Positions 4,193 to 12,339 of a stretch of DNA of 33,041 bases are shown here, piece by piece (position 1 is the stretch's first letter; each line of letters starts with the position of its first letter). The DNA is from Gammaproteobacteria bacterium (GTDB taxonomy: Bacteria > Pseudomonadota > Gammaproteobacteria > HK1), in NCBI GenBank assembly GCA_022823045.1, contig JAJDXW010000016.1:1-33041 (forward strand). Reading direction: 5' to 3'. The translations under genes were made by a program, and so were the position numbers. The notes below the pieces were generated by a model. The model was not told the DNA's origin. It saw only the letters and a program-made list of their open reading frames with translations, and did no database searches.

Positions 4193-4686
4193 CCATGCCA
4201 CCAATGCTTCACCGCCGTGTCACACCGATTCCACACATCTGGCAAGAATCGGACCGAACCCAACACCGCTCGGTGATCACGGGTGCTCGCGGTCTGAGTC
4301 CGGGCGCGGAGCCTGTCGCCAAGCGAAGGGCTCACGAGTACACGTGGACTTACCCGATTCGATGGACCGTTTGTGGTTGGTCCGGCACGTCCCCCGGCCG
4401 GACAGCGAAGGTTGACTCGACATCGCGCGATGCATCGTGACCGAGCTCGCGTGCTTCCTCCTGCTTCGACAAGGTGTATGGCCCGCATGGTGTCACGGTG
4501 GTCGCCTTCGATACCGGGACGACGGATCGTGCGAGATTTGCGTCTCGGACGGCACGTGGCGCGCCCACCAAAGCGGGACAAGGAACGACATCGTCTCCCT
4601 GCTCGTTCGTCCATTCGCCTCGCACCGCGCCGTCCGGGAGACGCCGAGTTTGCTATCGTGGTTGTCGGGTTTCAGGAGCCACCCCG

Positions 4687-6249
4687 GTGCACGACAAGTT
4701 CCTTGAAGTCAGGCTCTACGGCCGACGGGCCGGGTTCCTTCAACGCGGCGACAGGAATGGCTTCTCCTTCCAGTACGACTGCAACTACGCGAGCGATCCG
4801 GGGATGCCACCCCTCGGGATCCGTTTCCCGCTCCGCGAGAAAGCGTTCTCGCCCCGGCTGACACAGCGGTGGTTCGAGGGACTGCTGCCCGAAGGCGACC
4901 GACGCACCGAGTTTGCAAACGCTCTTGGCGTACCGAGAGTCGATGTATGGTCTCTGCTTCACGCGGCAGGCGCGGAGTGTGCAGGCGCGGTGCAGGTGGT
5001 TCCACCGGACCATCGCGACGACCCTCGACTCTTCGAACTCGACGACGAGACGTTGAGCGCACTCCTCGAACCGGCCACCTCACCACTGCCTCCCGCGACC
5101 AGGGCGGCGCGACTGTCTCTCGCCGGCACACAGGACAAGCTGACCCTGCATCGCAAGACGGACGGAACGTGGTGGATACCGATGGACGGACACGTCAGCA
5201 CGCATATCCTCAAGCCCTCCCACCCCGAGTTCCCGGGCCTGGTCGAAAACGAGCACTGGTGCATGGAAGTCGCCCGGCGAAGCGGGATCGAAACCGCGTT
5301 GACCACGATCGAGAACATCGACGGACTATCAGTGCTCATCGTGGAGCGCTACGACCGCATACACCAACCGGAGGGCACGCTCGAACGCGTCCACCAGGAG
5401 GACCTCGCGCAAGCACTCGGGAGCCGGACCAAGTACCAGGAAGACGGTTACCCGAGCACGCCGGATCTCTTCCGGGTGCCGGGAGTCGATCGCGATGCGA
5501 TGCTGGACCGAATCTTCGCGAACTGGCTGCTCGGCAACTGCGACGCACACGCGAAGAACTACTCGGTTCTCGAACCGGGAACCACCCGGGCGCGCCTCGC
5601 GCCCGCGTACGACGTCGTCGCCACGGAGGCCTACCCGCACCTCAGCCGGAGACTGGCAACCTCGATCGGGAGAGCGACGACGCTCGACACGGTTGACGCG
5701 TCAGCCGTCGAGGCCCTCGGGCGTCGTCTGGGCTTCGAACGCGGAGAGCCTCTCCGGCGACTCGGCGAGCTCGCCGATCGGTTGGGTCAAGCGATTGGTG
5801 AGGTGGGGGCTCCACCATTCGGCTCCGACTCCATGCCGCGAGGAACGGCGCAACGGATCGTCTTGGGTCGGAGATGGCGGAACGCACACCACAGGGTACA
5901 GGGAGAGCCGACACTGACGACCCGGAGAATCCGGCTCGCAAGCAGCGTGAAGAAACTCGGCACCGGACCGGTAAAGGGCGACATCCGCCGGATATTCCGC
6001 GAGCACGACACCAGGGTCCCGTCGATGATGATGGATTCGGGAAAACGGGTAGTGTTCGGACTCGCGACCGAAGACGGCGAAGTGACGCCGCTATTCGTGG
6101 TGACGCCAGGGGCTGAAGACGCGTTCGCGGACTGGATGCAACAACACGAGGACCTCTGGGGCCAGCCTCTCGGCCACGGAGGCGACGGACCCGGCGGCAT
6201 CGCGGCAACCGTCGCAAGCTACCGCGAAAAATGTTTGGAGAAGACGTAA
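4687..6249 (+). CDS. HipA-family serine/threonine kinase (type II toxin-antitoxin toxin-like) with C-terminal extension
   Basis: HipA N-terminal domain (FEGLLPEGDRRTEFANALGV, AAGAECAGAVQV); kinase motifs RLSLAGTQDKLTL, LKPSHPEFPGLVENEHWCMEVAR, ANWLLGNCDAHAKNYSVL, LAPAYDVVAT. GTG start at 4687 is in frame and matches the HipA N-terminus better than the ATG at 4474. Confidence 0.88.
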   Translation: MHDKFLEVRLYGRRAGFLQRGDRNGFSFQYDCNYASDPGMPPLGIRFPLREKAFSPRLTQRWFEGLLPEGDRRTEFANALGVPRVDVWSLLHAAGAECAGAVQVVPPDHRDDPRLFELDDETLSALLEPATSPLPPATRAARLSLAGTQDKLTLHRKTDGTWWIPMDGHVSTHILKPSHPEFPGLVENEHWCMEVARRSGIETALTTIENIDGLSVLIVERYDRIHQPEGTLERVHQEDLAQALGSRTKYQEDGYPSTPDLFRVPGVDRDAMLDRIFANWLLGNCDAHAKNYSVLEPGTTRARLAPAYDVVATEAYPHLSRRLATSIGRATTLDTVDASAVEALGRRLGFERGEPLRRLGELADRLGQAIGEVGAPPFGSDSMPRGTAQRIVLGRRWRNAHHRVQGEPTLTTRRIRLASSVKKLGTGPVKGDIRRIFREHDTRVPSMMMDSGKRVVFGLATEDGEVTPLFVVTPGAEDAFADWMQQHEDLWGQPLGHGGDGPGGIAATVASYREKCLEKT

Positions 6250-6333: not shown

Positions 6334-7209
6334 TCAGGTTCGCATCCAGGCCGTCCCCCAGAGGTTGAGGGTCCGCTCCTCCAGGGGCCACACCCGGTGC
6401 GGGGCATCGCGGTCCATGTGCTCCATTTCCGCGGAGATCTCGATCCGGTTGCCGTCGGGGTCCCGGATCATGAGGAAGAGGTTGTTGCCGGGGCCATGCC
6501 GCCCCGGACCCCACCAGATGGGAACCCGGAGCTCGGCGAAGTGGTCCGCCCAGTCACGGAGATCGTTCCACCCTTCCGCCTCGAGCGCGAAGTGATCGAA
6601 GGCCGGCCGTGAGGCACGGAAGGCCGCGAAGGAGTGATGCTCCGGATCGGAACGGACGAAGCCGGCGGTGAGCGCGCGGTCGTCGTTCTCCACCCGATCG
6701 GAGAGCACGAATCCCGCTTCGTCGACCAGGAAGGAAAGGAGCGGTTCGGGCGCGGGGGTGCGAAACACCACGTGCTGAAGGCGTCCGGACAGCCCGCCCC
6801 CATCCGCCGCGGAGGGCGGTTCCGCCGGGACGCCGAAGAGAAGCGCGATCCCGTCGGGGGCTCCGTCGGGAGCAAGGACCCGGAATGCGCCCGCCTCGAG
6901 GAACGGAGACTCGGCAGGCTCCGTCGGGACCCCGCGGCCCGCAAACCGCGCCTCGAGCTCCGCGACCCGCCCGGAGCTGTCCAGCCCGTATGCGACGTGG
7001 CGGGCGCCCGTCCCGGAGCCGGGCTCGACGACGATGATCCGGCCGGGCCCGGCAAGGACCGCGCCGCCGCCCGGGGTGCGCTCCCATCGCATCTGGAGGG
7101 TCGCGGCAAGGAAGTCGGAGACCCGTTCCGGATCGGCGCTCTCGAGCGCGAGGTGATGCAGCGAGGCGGGCCAGAGCGGGGAGGGGAGGGGAGGAGGGGA
7201 AGAGGGCAT
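6334..7209 (-). CDS. Two-domain VOC-superfamily protein (glyoxalase / extradiol dioxygenase-like)
   Basis: Two VOC modules (LHHLALESADPERVSDFL ... LQHVVFRTP ... FDHFALEAEGW ... DPDGNRIEIS), with His/His/Glu candidate metal ligands. Confidence 0.8.
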   Translation of the reverse strand: MPSSPPPLPSPLWPASLHHLALESADPERVSDFLAATLQMRWERTPGGGAVLAGPGRIIVVEPGSGTGARHVAYGLDSSGRVAELEARFAGRGVPTEPAESPFLEAGAFRVLAPDGAPDGIALLFGVPAEPPSAADGGGLSGRLQHVVFRTPAPEPLLSFLVDEAGFVLSDRVENDDRALTAGFVRSDPEHHSFAAFRASRPAFDHFALEAEGWNDLRDWADHFAELRVPIWWGPGRHGPGNNLFLMIRDPDGNRIEISAEMEHMDRDAPHRVWPLEERTLNLWGTAWMRT

Positions 7210-7401: not shown

Positions 7402-8682
7402 ATGGAATTCCGCGCCCCGACCCATCGCCGCGGCACGCTCGCGCTCTTTGCGGTGATCTGCCTTCCCTTCGGGGCCGGCTACTTCCTCTCCTACCTCTAT
7501 CGCTCCATCAACGCGGTCATCGGCCCCCCGATCGCACGGGAGCTCGGGCTCGGGGCCGGAGACCTCGGACTCCTGACCTCCGCCTACTTCCTGGGCTTCG
7601 GGCTCTTCCAGCTCCCCCTCGGGGTCCTGCTCGATCGCTACGGGCCCCGCCGGGTGCAGTGCGCGCTCCTGCTCGTCGCCACCGGCGGGGCGCTCATCTT
7701 CGCCGCCGCGCAGTCGTTCGCGCTCCTCACCCTCGGGCGGGCCCTCATCGGGATCGGATTCGCGGGCGGGCTCATGGCCTCGTTCAAGGCGATCACGGTC
7801 TGGTTCCCGCGCCGCCGGTGGCCGCTCGTCAACGGTCTCCTCATGGGCTTCGGGGGCCTCGGCACGATGGCCGCGACCGCGCCCGTCGAGATGGCGCTCG
7901 CGTGGGGGGCGAGCTGGCGCGACGTCTTCCACCTCCTCGCGGCGGTGACCGCGGCGGTCTCCTTTCTCATCCTCTTCGCGGTTCCCGCTCACGCCTCGGA
8001 GCGGGAAGGGCGCGCGGACTCGGTGGGGGAGGCCCTCGCGGGCCTCGCCCTCATCTTCCGCGATCGGCTCTTCTGGCGGGTCGCCCCCGTGTGCATCGCG
8101 GCCATGGGCGCCGGTCTCTCGATACAGGGCCTGTGGGCCGGACCCTGGCTGCACGACGTGGCCGGGCTCCCCTCGAGCGAGGTCGCCCGCCACCTCCTCG
8201 TGCTGACCGTCGCCCTTACCCTCGGAATGCTCGCGACCGGCCCCGTCGCCGACGGATTCGCCCGATTCGGGGTCGGACCGCTCGGGGTGGTGGGCTTCAC
8301 CGCATCCATCCTCGTCCTTCCCATCGTCCTGCTGATCATGGAGGTGCATCCCCGCGGGTACTGGGTATGGGCCCTGTTCGGGCTTCTCAGCAACCTCACC
8401 ATCGTGGTCTATCCCGCGATCTCCGCCCACTTCACGGTGCGCTACGCGGGCCGGGCGATGACGGCGCTCAACCTGCTGCTCTTCCTCGGGGCGTTCCTGA
8501 TGCAGTACCTGATCGGCGCCATCATCGACCTCTGGCCGCCGGGTCCGGAGGGGGGGTATCACCCGGAGGGCTATCGAGCCGCCTTCTGGCTCGTCGGACT
8601 CATCCTCGTGCTCGGAGTGGGGTGGCTGACGGTGCCGGGAGGCGTGCTCAGGAACGCTTCGCTGCGAGGTCCAGCTCCGTAG
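7402..8682 (+). CDS. Major facilitator superfamily (MFS) transporter
   Basis: About 12 hydrophobic segments; MFS loop 2/3 signature GVLLDRYGPRRVQ after TM2; length 426 aa. Confidence 0.9.
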   Translation: MEFRAPTHRRGTLALFAVICLPFGAGYFLSYLYRSINAVIGPPIARELGLGAGDLGLLTSAYFLGFGLFQLPLGVLLDRYGPRRVQCALLLVATGGALIFAAAQSFALLTLGRALIGIGFAGGLMASFKAITVWFPRRRWPLVNGLLMGFGGLGTMAATAPVEMALAWGASWRDVFHLLAAVTAAVSFLILFAVPAHASEREGRADSVGEALAGLALIFRDRLFWRVAPVCIAAMGAGLSIQGLWAGPWLHDVAGLPSSEVARHLLVLTVALTLGMLATGPVADGFARFGVGPLGVVGFTASILVLPIVLLIMEVHPRGYWVWALFGLLSNLTIVVYPAISAHFTVRYAGRAMTALNLLLFLGAFLMQYLIGAIIDLWPPGPEGGYHPEGYRAAFWLVGLILVLGVGWLTVPGGVLRNASLRGPAP

Positions 8683-8885: not shown

Positions 8886-9014
8886 TTCGAACTGACGCCC
8901 GAGGACCCCAAGAACCAACCGGCGACCACCACAGCTCTCGAGACTCACGGGTACACTCCTCGTCCCCCGATCGACCGGAACCGGATGTGCGCCCACGACG
9001 CGCACAATCACGCC

Positions 9015-9512
9015 ATGACGAACGACATCACCGACCCCCGCGTACTCGCCCTGGTTCGTCGGCTCGAGCAACGCTACGTCGACGCCGTCGATTCCCGCCG
9101 AATGGACGCATGGCTCGCCTGCTTCACCGAGGACGGCTCGTACTACGTCCTCGGCGCGGACAACGAGGCGGACGACCTGCCTCTTTGCCTGATGATGGAC
9201 GACTGCCGGGAGCGCCTCGAGGACCGGGCGACCTTCGTCGACGAGGTCTGGCCGGGCTCGTACGAGGACTACCAGACACGGCACTTCGTCCAGCCGCTGC
9301 GGCTGGAGGCCGACGAGAGTGGCGCGGGGATGTTCCGTTCGCTCTCGAACTTCACGGTGTTCGCGACGGACGCGCGGGGCCGCACGAGTCTGTTCATCGC
9401 GGGACAGTACCGCGACCGCATCCGGGTGAACGGAGAACAATGCCACTACGTCGAGCGGCGTGCGGTGATGGATACGTTCACGACCCCCGGCGTGATCGTG
9501 TATCCTCTTTAG
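9015..9512 (+). CDS. Aromatic-ring-hydroxylating dioxygenase beta (small) subunit-like, NTF2/SnoaL fold
   Basis: LVRRLEQRYVDAVDSRRMDAWLACFTEDGSYYVLG...LPLCLMMDDCRERLEDRATF...QTRHFVQPLRLE...FTVFATDARGRTSLFIAGQYRDRI. Start at 9015 (MTNDITD) preferred over 8985. Confidence 0.78.
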   Translation: MTNDITDPRVLALVRRLEQRYVDAVDSRRMDAWLACFTEDGSYYVLGADNEADDLPLCLMMDDCRERLEDRATFVDEVWPGSYEDYQTRHFVQPLRLEADESGAGMFRSLSNFTVFATDARGRTSLFIAGQYRDRIRVNGEQCHYVERRAVMDTFTTPGVIVYPL

Positions 9513-9577: not shown

Positions 9578-10870
9578 CTAGCGCTCGTATCCCATCGTTC
9601 GCCGATAGACCTCCCACCACACCGTGTTGGTGGTCTCGTCGTTCTGCGTGACCGCGTACGGATCGTAGTCGGCGTCGTCGCTCCACCCGCGGACGTAACG
9701 GGTGTTGTCGGGGCGCGAGTGGAGCCCGCGCTGAATGCGGGCGAACACCGCGCCATCCTCCAGGCTGATGAACCCGCTCGGCCCGATGAGGTTGGAGGAC
9801 TGCCGGAGCCGATGACGGACCATGTTCGGCTCGTCGTCCGCGTGGGCGAAGTACGCGTAGTGGACCTCGGTCCGGGCCGGATCGACCGGGTTTGCGAGGC
9901 GGACATTGATGACGTCGAGGTGGTTCATCACCGCCCCGAGCGGCCACGGGGTCACCAGCAGGGAGCCCGCCGCCTGGTCCGCGAACTTGTTGCGGGGGTC
10001 GTCCCCCCCCCGGTACGCGATGAGCTCCGGATCGCGAAGGAGGCGCGTGTCGGGCCGCGCGCCGGACCGGGTCCGGGTGATGCGGTGCCCGTTCGGGTCC
10101 CGGCGCTGGCTCCCTTCTCCTCCCCGCCACTGGAGGATCTGGAAGGCCCGGTGCAGCAGCGGCGCGTGGTAGCCCTCGTCGTCCATGTAGACCTTCCAGT
10201 TGGCCGCGAACTCCACCTTCTGGTAGCCGAGCAGGCGCAGGCGCCCGTCTCCGCCCATCGCGGCCCGCAGCGCGTCCCGGATGGAGCCGAGCCACTCCTC
10301 GAGCTCGGGCGGGCGTTCGTGAAGACTCACGAAGACGAGCCCCGCGAAGGTCGCCGCGTGCGCCTCCGCGAGCCCGTGGCGGCCCCGGTCGAACGAGACC
10401 GGGAAGTCCTTCTCGCCGGGGGTTCGCTCGAGCCGTCCGTCGAGTCCGTAGAGCCACCGGTGGTAGGGACACTCGAACCCGTCCGCCTGCCCTCGGAACC
10501 GGGTCTCGACCATGGTCCCCCGATGTGCGCACGAGTTGTGGAAGGCTCGGACCTCACCGTCCGCGCCGTGGACGAGGATGAGAGGGGTGCGGCCAAGGGT
10601 GGTGGTCTTGAACCGGCCCGGGGAGTCGAGCTCCGCGAGGTGGCCGACGACGTGCCACAGCGGACCCTCGAATATGCGTTCGATCTCGCGCTCGAAGACG
10701 GAGGCGTCCTCGACCGCCCACTTGGGGGCTTCGTTGAAGCTCGTCGGCCACTTCCTCGCCGGCGCCGGATCCGGCGCGGCCGCCGCCGCGGCCTCGGCGA
10801 CCCTCGGGCCGGACGGGGTCCATTCGCTCAAGCGGTCGCTCCAGCGAAGGGCTCTCGCTCCTCGCGCCAT
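9578..10870 (-). CDS. Rieske [2Fe-2S] aromatic-ring-hydroxylating oxygenase, alpha (large) subunit
   Basis: Rieske ligands C-x-H (NSCAHRGTMVE) and C-x2-H (FECPYHRWLYGLDGRL); mononuclear Fe region NWKVYMDDEGYHAPLLH. The annotated start overlaps the upstream cupin CDS by 43 bp, so the true start may be further in. Confidence 0.88.
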   Translation of the reverse strand: MARGARALRWSDRLSEWTPSGPRVAEAAAAAAPDPAPARKWPTSFNEAPKWAVEDASVFEREIERIFEGPLWHVVGHLAELDSPGRFKTTTLGRTPLILVHGADGEVRAFHNSCAHRGTMVETRFRGQADGFECPYHRWLYGLDGRLERTPGEKDFPVSFDRGRHGLAEAHAATFAGLVFVSLHERPPELEEWLGSIRDALRAAMGGDGRLRLLGYQKVEFAANWKVYMDDEGYHAPLLHRAFQILQWRGGEGSQRRDPNGHRITRTRSGARPDTRLLRDPELIAYRGGDDPRNKFADQAAGSLLVTPWPLGAVMNHLDVINVRLANPVDPARTEVHYAYFAHADDEPNMVRHRLRQSSNLIGPSGFISLEDGAVFARIQRGLHSRPDNTRYVRGWSDDADYDPYAVTQNDETTNTVWWEVYRRTMGYER

Positions 10871-11880
10871 AGCCCGAGGGCCTCCTGCACAACGCGGTCG
10901 GAGAAGCTGAACAGTACCGCCTCCTCCTCGACTTCATGGCGCCGCGGCCACCAGCTCGGAATGACGAAGGTGTCGCGCGGCCCCCAGGTGAACGTCTCTT
11001 CGCCGGCCTCCGTCCGCCCCTCCCCTTCCGCCACGCAGAACACCGTGGCGTCGGTCGAACGATGGGCGGCACCCCGGAAGCCCCGGGGGAGAAGCTGGAT
11101 GAACGTCGCGATGGTGGGAAGCGCGTATCCGCCGTCGAGGGGATTGGCGTACTTCATCCGGATCCCGTGGCAGGCGTCGACCGCCGCGCTCGCACGGAGA
11201 CGGTCGAGGGCTTCGCGGGTCCGCGCGTAGGGGAAGCTGAAGACCGGCGAAGCCGGGCCTCCGGAGGAAGCCTCGACCGGGAGCAGCCCGCACCCGTAAC
11301 GGGCGGCGGCGGCGCCGCGGGGACGGGTCGTCGCTTGCGCCTCCTCCGGATAGCGCTCCGCGAACGATGCGTCGAGCAGGGTCACGATGGGAATGTCCAA
11401 CCCGTCGAGCCACACTACGGGTCCATCGGACTCGTTGCCGTGGTCGTGCCAGGTACCCGAGGGGGTGATGATGAAGTCTCCCTCGTGCATCACCGCCTTC
11501 TCGCCGTCCACCGCGGTGTAGGCGCCCTCCCCTTCGACCACGAAGCGAAGGGCGGTCTGGGTATGGCGGTGGGCCGGCGCCACCTCTCCCGGCAGGATAA
11601 GCTGAAGGCCCGCGTAGAGCGACGTGGTTACCCGTGACTCGCCGCGCAGGCCCGGATTCTCGAGGACCAGCACCCGACGCTCGGCCTCCCGCGCGGAGAT
11701 GAGGTCTCCCGACTCGAGGAGCAGGGTTCGGACATCCTCGTAGCGCCAGCATGCGGGCCGGCAGCGGCTCGCGGGGGACGGGGTGACGAGGTCGCCCAGC
11801 ACCTCCCACAGCGGCGCCATCGAGAGCGGGTCGAGCCGCCGGTAGTAGTCGTTGCGCCGCGCCGCCGTGGCACCGGTCAT
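10828..11880 (-). CDS. Gentisate 1,2-dioxygenase-like bicupin
   Basis: First cupin APAHRHTQTALRFVVEGEGAYTAVDGEKAVMHEGDFIITPSGTWHDHGNE...VVWLDGLDIPIV, second cupin RGAAHRSTDATVFCVAEGEGRT...WGPRDTFVIPSWWPRRHE. Start chosen at MTGATAARRN (11880) rather than 11931. Confidence 0.85.
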   Translation of the reverse strand: MTGATAARRNDYYRRLDPLSMAPLWEVLGDLVTPSPASRCRPACWRYEDVRTLLLESGDLISAREAERRVLVLENPGLRGESRVTTSLYAGLQLILPGEVAPAHRHTQTALRFVVEGEGAYTAVDGEKAVMHEGDFIITPSGTWHDHGNESDGPVVWLDGLDIPIVTLLDASFAERYPEEAQATTRPRGAAAARYGCGLLPVEASSGGPASPVFSFPYARTREALDRLRASAAVDACHGIRMKYANPLDGGYALPTIATFIQLLPRGFRGAAHRSTDATVFCVAEGEGRTEAGEETFTWGPRDTFVIPSWWPRRHEVEEEAVLFSFSDRVVQEALGLWREEREPFAGATA

Positions 11881-11905
11881 CGAGTCACCTCCGTTCGGGG
11901 CCTCG

Positions 11906-12319
11906 TCAGCCGAGGAGGCCGCGGAAGGCATCCGGGATCGGTTCGGCCCGGAGCCGGCCGTCGGCGCCCCGCTTCGCCCAGATGCGGACCTCGCGTCCTT
12001 CCACGGCCATGACTTCCGCCTCGCCGTCGAAGCGATGGTACACGGTGAAGCTGCTGGTGCCCCATCGTTCGACGAAGCTGGTCGTCCGCAGGAGGTCCCC
12101 GTAGGTCACCGGGGCGGTGAAGCGGGCGCTCGCGTCCACCGCTGCGGTGCCGACGATGCCGAACTCGTCGCGGAGCGATCGCTGGTCGAGCCCGACGCTC
12201 CGCAGGAGCGCCTGGGTGCACTCGTCGAACCATCGGAAGTAGACGGGATAGAAGATGATGCCGGCCGCGTCGCAGTCCCCCCAGTTGGCCCGTATCTCGG
12301 TTCGGTTTCGGTGTGCCAT
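11906..12319 (-). CDS. 4-hydroxybenzoyl-CoA-thioesterase-type (hotdog) acyl-CoA thioesterase
   Basis: NWGDCDAAGIIFYPVYFRWFDECTQALL (4HBT D-x-D-x2-G-x2-[FY] signature) and hotdog length of about 137 aa. Confidence 0.87.
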   Translation of the reverse strand: MAHRNRTEIRANWGDCDAAGIIFYPVYFRWFDECTQALLRSVGLDQRSLRDEFGIVGTAAVDASARFTAPVTYGDLLRTTSFVERWGTSSFTVYHRFDGEAEVMAVEGREVRIWAKRGADGRLRAEPIPDAFRGLLG

Positions 12320-12339
12320 GCGTGTCCGCGGCGATCGGA

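Follow-up and report, generated by a model that had tools for sequence, protein, structure and literature searches.

The stretch of DNA analysed here (the window, 33,041 nt) carries a small catabolic island, the features of which are listed in Table 1. Its Rieske oxygenase alpha gene is open over all 430 codons, and the product exceeds the Pfam cut-offs for both Rieske (60.4 bits) and Ring_hydroxyl_A (56.8 bits). On the same strand, the genes for a thioesterase and a gentisate 1,2-dioxygenase overlap by 26 bp, and the latter overlaps the annotated alpha start by 43 bp; the thioesterase and the dioxygenase are probably in one operon. The beta subunit gene lies on the opposite strand, convergent with alpha and separated from it by 65 bp, and the same order is found in the two sister genomes L021 and L022. 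A search for promoters or terminators between the window alpha and beta genes gave nothing above chance. The VOC-superfamily gene is present in L022 and only partially matched in L021, and its part in the pathway is uncertain. A HipA-type kinase gene (HipA_C and Couple_hipA; 4474-6249, +) adjoins the island; it is flanked by uvrC and a CDP-alcohol phosphatidyltransferase gene to one side and by the MFS and beta genes to the other. The region 12340-33026 (-) holds genes of the holB, fabF, fabG, fabD, plsX, pseudouridine synthase, era, pdxJ and elongation factor P types, and this ordinary housekeeping block makes a chromosomal location of the island most likely. A phage collection contained distant Rieske alphas only.

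Table 1. Features of the catabolic island in the window.
Feature	Position	Strand	Remarks
VOC-superfamily protein, extradiol-dioxygenase-like	6334..7101	-	HpaD 92.7 bits vs cut-off 321
MFS transporter, possible aromatic-acid permease, upstream of beta	7402..8682	+	PF07690 122 bits; conserved in L021, L022
Ring-hydroxylating dioxygenase beta subunit	8985..9512	+	PF00866 66.9 bits; 35-45% to clade betas
Rieske oxygenase alpha subunit, BphA1e/AhdA1e clade, bridging Glu232	9578..10870	-	430 aa; PF00355 + PF00848
DNA of shortened mononuclear-iron motif NWKVYMDDEGYHA (Asn231 -> Asp, bridging Asp -> Glu232)	10164..10201	-	
Gentisate 1,2-dioxygenase	10828..11931	-	TIGR02272 545 bits vs cut-off 442
4HBT-type acyl-CoA thioesterase	11906..12322	-	PF13279 46 bits; conserved in L021, L022

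Residues 224-240 of alpha read NWKVYMDDEGYHAPLLH, and the Rieske boxes CAHRG..CPYHRW span residues 114-139. Numbered from the annotated ATG, the key positions are N224, D230, D231, E232, H235 and H240 in the iron motif and C114, H116, C134, H137 and W139 in the Rieske domain. The annotated start codon is uncertain, as the first ~40 residues overlap the end of the upstream gene or are poorly conserved; conservation is firm from about residue 44. Alignment with the pNL1 paralogues and pA81 OhbB showed a gap of 2 residues between NWK and the first His and placed Glu232 in the column of the bridging Asp, while the other iron ligands (His235, His240, Asp372) are intact. Thus, the initial annotation had read the motif letters exactly, and the shortening, the bridging Glu and the CPYHRW box that it described are all present. 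It had missed the Asn231 to Asp change and the beta gene on the opposite strand.

Alpha has AndAc as its best NCBIfam match, and a sequence search gave TphA2 and NagG as best matches, with CntA far weaker. The best PDB matches found with Foldseek were terephthalate dioxygenase and the salicylate 5-hydroxylase NagGH, which agrees with the sequence search. The underlying AlphaFold model (pTM 0.81, 37 sequences) recovers the alpha fold and is of weak value exactly at the motif, where pLDDT falls to about 55 over residues 231-250. Kinship of alpha to CntA or GbcA was rejected on sequence: enzymes of the CntA group (group V quaternary-amine oxygenases) are alpha-only, and a beta gene is present here. 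The earlier comparison with CntA therefore holds for the bridging residue and not for kinship, the protein being an alpha/beta oxygenase of the NagG-AndAc-TphA2 type.

The same short Glu motif is found in two independent genomes of the genus (NWKVYIDDEGYH), L021, an Immundisolibacterales bacterium, and L022, an uncultured Gammaproteobacteria bacterium, whose alphas are 86-94% identical to that of the window. Between the window and each sister species the dN/dS of alpha is 0.077 and 0.076 (NG86), and by the same measure beta gives 0.12 and the gentisate dioxygenase 0.14 and 0.08. Alpha is under strong purifying selection, and the low ratios of alpha (0.08) and beta (0.12) indicate functional constraint on both. 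The source MAG has 7.3% contamination, which could have favoured an artefact of sequencing or assembly, or gene decay, as the origin of the motif. Given the open frame, the low dN/dS and the same short Glu motif in the two sister genomes, we regard this explanation as refuted, and the indel near the motif that the initial annotation had named as grounds for withdrawing its reading is excluded by the same evidence.

To place the protein we scanned ~85,000 species genomes, which yielded 79 loci. In a tree computed with the motif and trait columns masked, and with AhdA1c/d-like, OhbB-like and NagG-like alphas as outgroups, the 54 short-motif representatives formed one group with support 100/100. 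The window alpha falls with BphA1e-type sequences of pNL1, apart from the AhdA1c/d, OhbB and NagG types (100/100); the pNL1 protein itself was left out of the tree, as it is near-identical to other sphingomonad sequences that were included. The short spacing is seen in 54/54 sampled clade members, window included, and the short motif occurs in every clade member recovered, nearly all of them spelling it DNDGYH or close to it. The third position of the clade's D-X-D is the bridging Asp, where the window alpha has Glu232; since the tree places it there, we count the protein, despite this Glu, as a variant inside the clade. It shows neither the close sequence relationship nor the EN-x2-D motif of a NagG, from which it differs in both motif and clade. 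Among six alphas checked on pNL1, SARO_RS16980, which is 45% identical to the window protein, is the only one with the short motif. This matches the statement published in 2014 that AhdA1e is the only sphingomonad ring-hydroxylating oxygenase with D-X-D-X2-H-X4-H (PMC4048848).

BphA1e, AhdA1e and ORF25 had already been grouped as a separate cluster by Kweon et al. 2008 (PMC2358900). The "divergent Rieske subgroup" of the initial annotation is thus a distinct subgroup and not a novel one. It had taken the short spacing for an anomaly unless a described clade proved to share it; such a clade is on record, and the spacing is standard in it (PMC4048848, PMC2358900). CPYHRW was likewise rejected as a novelty: it is near-universal in the clade, the basal L112 to L114 having CPYHAW or CPYHGW, and is no published clade criterion. 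As for activity, the P2 "BphA1e" is reported to work with a type IV electron chain (PMC2358900), and AromaDeg lists three validated salicylate 1-hydroxylases from P2, in clusters I, XIV and XV (PMC4250580). From the accession order we infer that the cluster I protein is AhdA1e. PNB has a truncated, inactive AhdA1e gene (PMC4048848). Three gammaproteobacterial genomes (G166, G277, G371; L104-L117) hold four or five short-motif alpha paralogues each, which suggests substrate diversification. Judged by its sequence, the window alpha is an ordinary, conserved representative of a known salicylate-type Rieske family. The short motif and CPYHRW come to it from the clade, and Glu232, Asp231 and the gene order are specialities of the genus. 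Elsewhere in the clade, a beta gene, where detected, nearly always follows alpha and shares its strand. The closest relatives of the window alpha, from Immundisolibacter-like genomes (52-56%; L130:8307-9524, L131:9088-10272), showed no beta gene up to about 8 kb away; at these two loci an amidohydrolase gene precedes alpha.

In Rieske oxygenases the bridging carboxylate gates electron transfer. Glu is the bridging residue of Novosphingobium hassiacum (L076) and of all three species of the window genus; the other 50/50 of the 54 representatives have Asp. Closest to the window genus in this set are L109 and L111 (from Immundisolibacter-like genomes, 52-56% identity), which have Asp preceded by Asn, and at position 231, where the window genus has Asp, Asn is found in 49/50 of the other representatives. 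Constraining both Glu lineages to a common origin costs 54 log units and was rejected by an AU test (p = 0.0001), although L076 is a long branch and the constrained group was defined after the tree was seen. Two separate origins of Glu are therefore favoured, with some reserve owing to the long branch. The only columns common to both Glu lineages and rare elsewhere are 232 (Glu), 266 (Arg) and 373 (Gly). Position 373 directly follows the iron ligand Asp372 and is Ala in 48/50 other representatives, Gly being the outgroup state; the change from Ala to Gly could make room for the longer Glu beside the iron ligand.

Scans with a single codon pattern, which would miss other motif spellings, covered 301 genomes from the family of N. 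hassiacum, where that species was the only Glu member, 300 from the family to which Xenophilus belongs, where there was none, and 369 from the class of the window, where the window alone had the motif. Alpha-only Rieske oxygenases often have a bridging Glu, among them several of the window genome (L002, L003, L004) that read like FLETYH, FLECYH or FIEPYH, so that the surprise is limited to its presence in an alpha/beta salicylate-type enzyme. A full-text literature search for "bridging glutamate" and Rieske led to work on CntA only, in which the bridging residue is E205 and the variants E205A, E205Q and E205D are all inactive (PMC7948474, PMC7986066). Asp and Glu are thus not freely interchangeable there, which counts against our preferred explanation as well.

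The gentisate dioxygenase of the window has counterparts in the two sister species with 92% and 85% identity. N. hassiacum also has one, scoring 496 bits, 2.4 kb downstream of its alpha and beside a fumarylacetoacetate-hydrolase-family gene and an AndAa/HcaD-like reductase gene. Among the 58 loci with at least 5 kb of sequence upstream and 3.5 kb downstream, strong gentisate dioxygenase neighbours were confined to the Glu lineages and were absent from all of the roughly 55 loci with Asp; L094, an Asp locus, carries a weaker relative of 227 bits, below the cut-off. Counted on the tree, this amounts to two matching pairs of two (p = 0.5). The pairing of Glu with gentisate dioxygenase thus appears to have arisen twice, which is suggestive and not significant, and because two events underlie it we put the link forward as a hypothesis. 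The initial annotation had considered altered coupling or substrate possible; the gentisate dioxygenase gene hints at an altered product. Glu is unnecessary for gentisate formation as such, since the salicylate 5-hydroxylase (7c8z) and a NagG-like alpha adjoining a gentisate dioxygenase (L012) keep the bridging Asp. Elsewhere in the window genome, a further gene resembling gentisate dioxygenase (40%) lies close to one of the fumarylacetoacetate hydrolase family (G000:C8:4310-5317, C8:8681-9184), and a similar pair lies on contig 73 of G002; these are possible downstream steps of the window pathway.

The Glu may be no more than neutral drift, with Asp and Glu interchangeable in the short-motif scaffold and the gentisate coincidence meaningless, a reading that is compatible with any function of the enzyme. 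With two independent events (sign test p = 0.5) and Glu so frequent in alpha-only oxygenases, several of the window genome included, we give drift a substantial chance, somewhat short of even; the uniform Asp of the 50 other representatives, the inactivity of E205D in CntA and the Gly373 common to both Glu lineages argue against it. We consider it improbable that Glu and the Gly by the iron ligand evolved twice, in a short-motif clade with catechol-making characterised members, upon recruitment of the enzyme to the gentisate pathway, with the bridging residue, or the pocket change that goes with it, helping to switch salicylate hydroxylation from C1 to C5.

On balance we favour, by a modest degree of confidence, the interpretation that alpha and beta form the oxygenase of a three-component, salicylate-type Rieske hydroxylase of the BphA1e/AhdA1e type that is coupled to gentisate cleavage. 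The MFS permease or internal metabolism would supply an ortho-substituted benzoate, most likely salicylate. Electrons from NADH would reach the Rieske cluster of alpha by way of an AndAa-like reductase and a Rieske ferredoxin, and would cross the subunit interface via Glu232, which by alignment holds the bridging position. For both carriers, each of the three genomes of the genus encodes candidates away from this locus, namely proteins related to the pNL1 ferredoxin (40-45%) and to the N. hassiacum reductase (42-45%), and in sphingomonads several oxygenases are served by one ferredoxin and one reductase (PMC4048848). The iron held by His235, His240 and Asp372 would then hydroxylate the ring, probably at C5, and the gentisate so formed would be opened by the gentisate 1,2-dioxygenase, whose family assignment is strong. 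Gentisate is suggested as the product because the neighbouring dioxygenase scores over its cut-off and the gene order is kept in three species; the catechol made by characterised clade members through 1-hydroxylation counts against it, as does, for the scheme as a whole, the putative pairing of alpha and beta across strands.

The enzyme could instead still be a salicylate or anthranilate 1-hydroxylase that yields catechol or 2-aminophenol like AhdA1c/d/e, beside a gentisate dioxygenase that is a chance neighbour serving another substrate. Such an activity is documented for the clade and its sphingomonad paralogues, and the genome does hold other Rieske alphas along with the 40% identical dioxygenase homologue. 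We nevertheless find it unlikely, as the dioxygenase overlaps alpha on the same strand in a conserved order, the second Glu lineage likewise has an authentic gentisate dioxygenase, and no sampled Asp member of the clade has a strong one nearby. Just as improbable to us is another substrate, either a different substituted benzoate (e.g., 3-hydroxybenzoate or an aminobenzoate) or a CoA ester, the latter accounting for the 4HBT thioesterase, with gentisate or a close analogue as product. The overlap of the thioesterase with the dioxygenase, conserved in the genus, would fit this, as would the AndAc match of alpha and the 262 bits, below the cut-off, that the window dioxygenase scores with the 5-aminosalicylate dioxygenase model. 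There was, however, no CoA ligase beside the locus, and annotated members of the salicylate/anthranilate/terephthalate group use free aryl carboxylates (PMC9060491).

Taken together, the family is ordinary and the detail is real, and we offer the regiochemistry switch and the role of Glu as hypotheses. In CntA, even a conservative change of the bridging carboxylate kills the enzyme. Here, nature has made the Asp to Glu swap twice in a single clade that also contains closely related Asp enzymes, and both Glu lineages share a further change near the iron, which offers a ready comparison for the effect of residue length. These swaps would also annotate an uncharacterised, probably gentisate-forming enzyme of Immundisolibacterales-type bacteria.

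Of the known systems, BphA1e/AhdA1e (N. aromaticivorans pNL1, Sphingobium P2 and PNB) share the short D-x-(D/E)-x2-H-x4-H motif, CPYHRW and the monophyletic group with the window protein, at about 45% identity over 390 residues. They differ in having the bridging Asp, an Asn before it and Ala after the iron-ligand Asp, and their alpha and beta genes stand in tandem on one strand with DHDPS-family aldolase and amidohydrolase neighbours and no gentisate dioxygenase. The salicylate 5-hydroxylase NagGH (PDB 7c8z) belongs to the same wider family of alpha/beta enzymes, has Gly after the iron-ligand Asp, and makes gentisate, which would also be the product in the window; its motif is full-length with a bridging Asp (NWKLMQENIKDPYH), its second Rieske box is CPYHQW, and identity is about 30%. 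TphA2 terephthalate dioxygenase (PDB 7q04, 7vju) is the closest solved fold and sequence match, whereas it has a full-length motif, a bridging Asp, CVYHAW and a dicarboxylate substrate, again at about 30% identity. CntA carnitine oxygenase (PDB 6y8j) resembles the window protein in the bridging Glu at D/E-x2-H and is otherwise different, being an alpha3 enzyme without beta, from another clade, which acts on a quaternary amine and is inactive as E205D.
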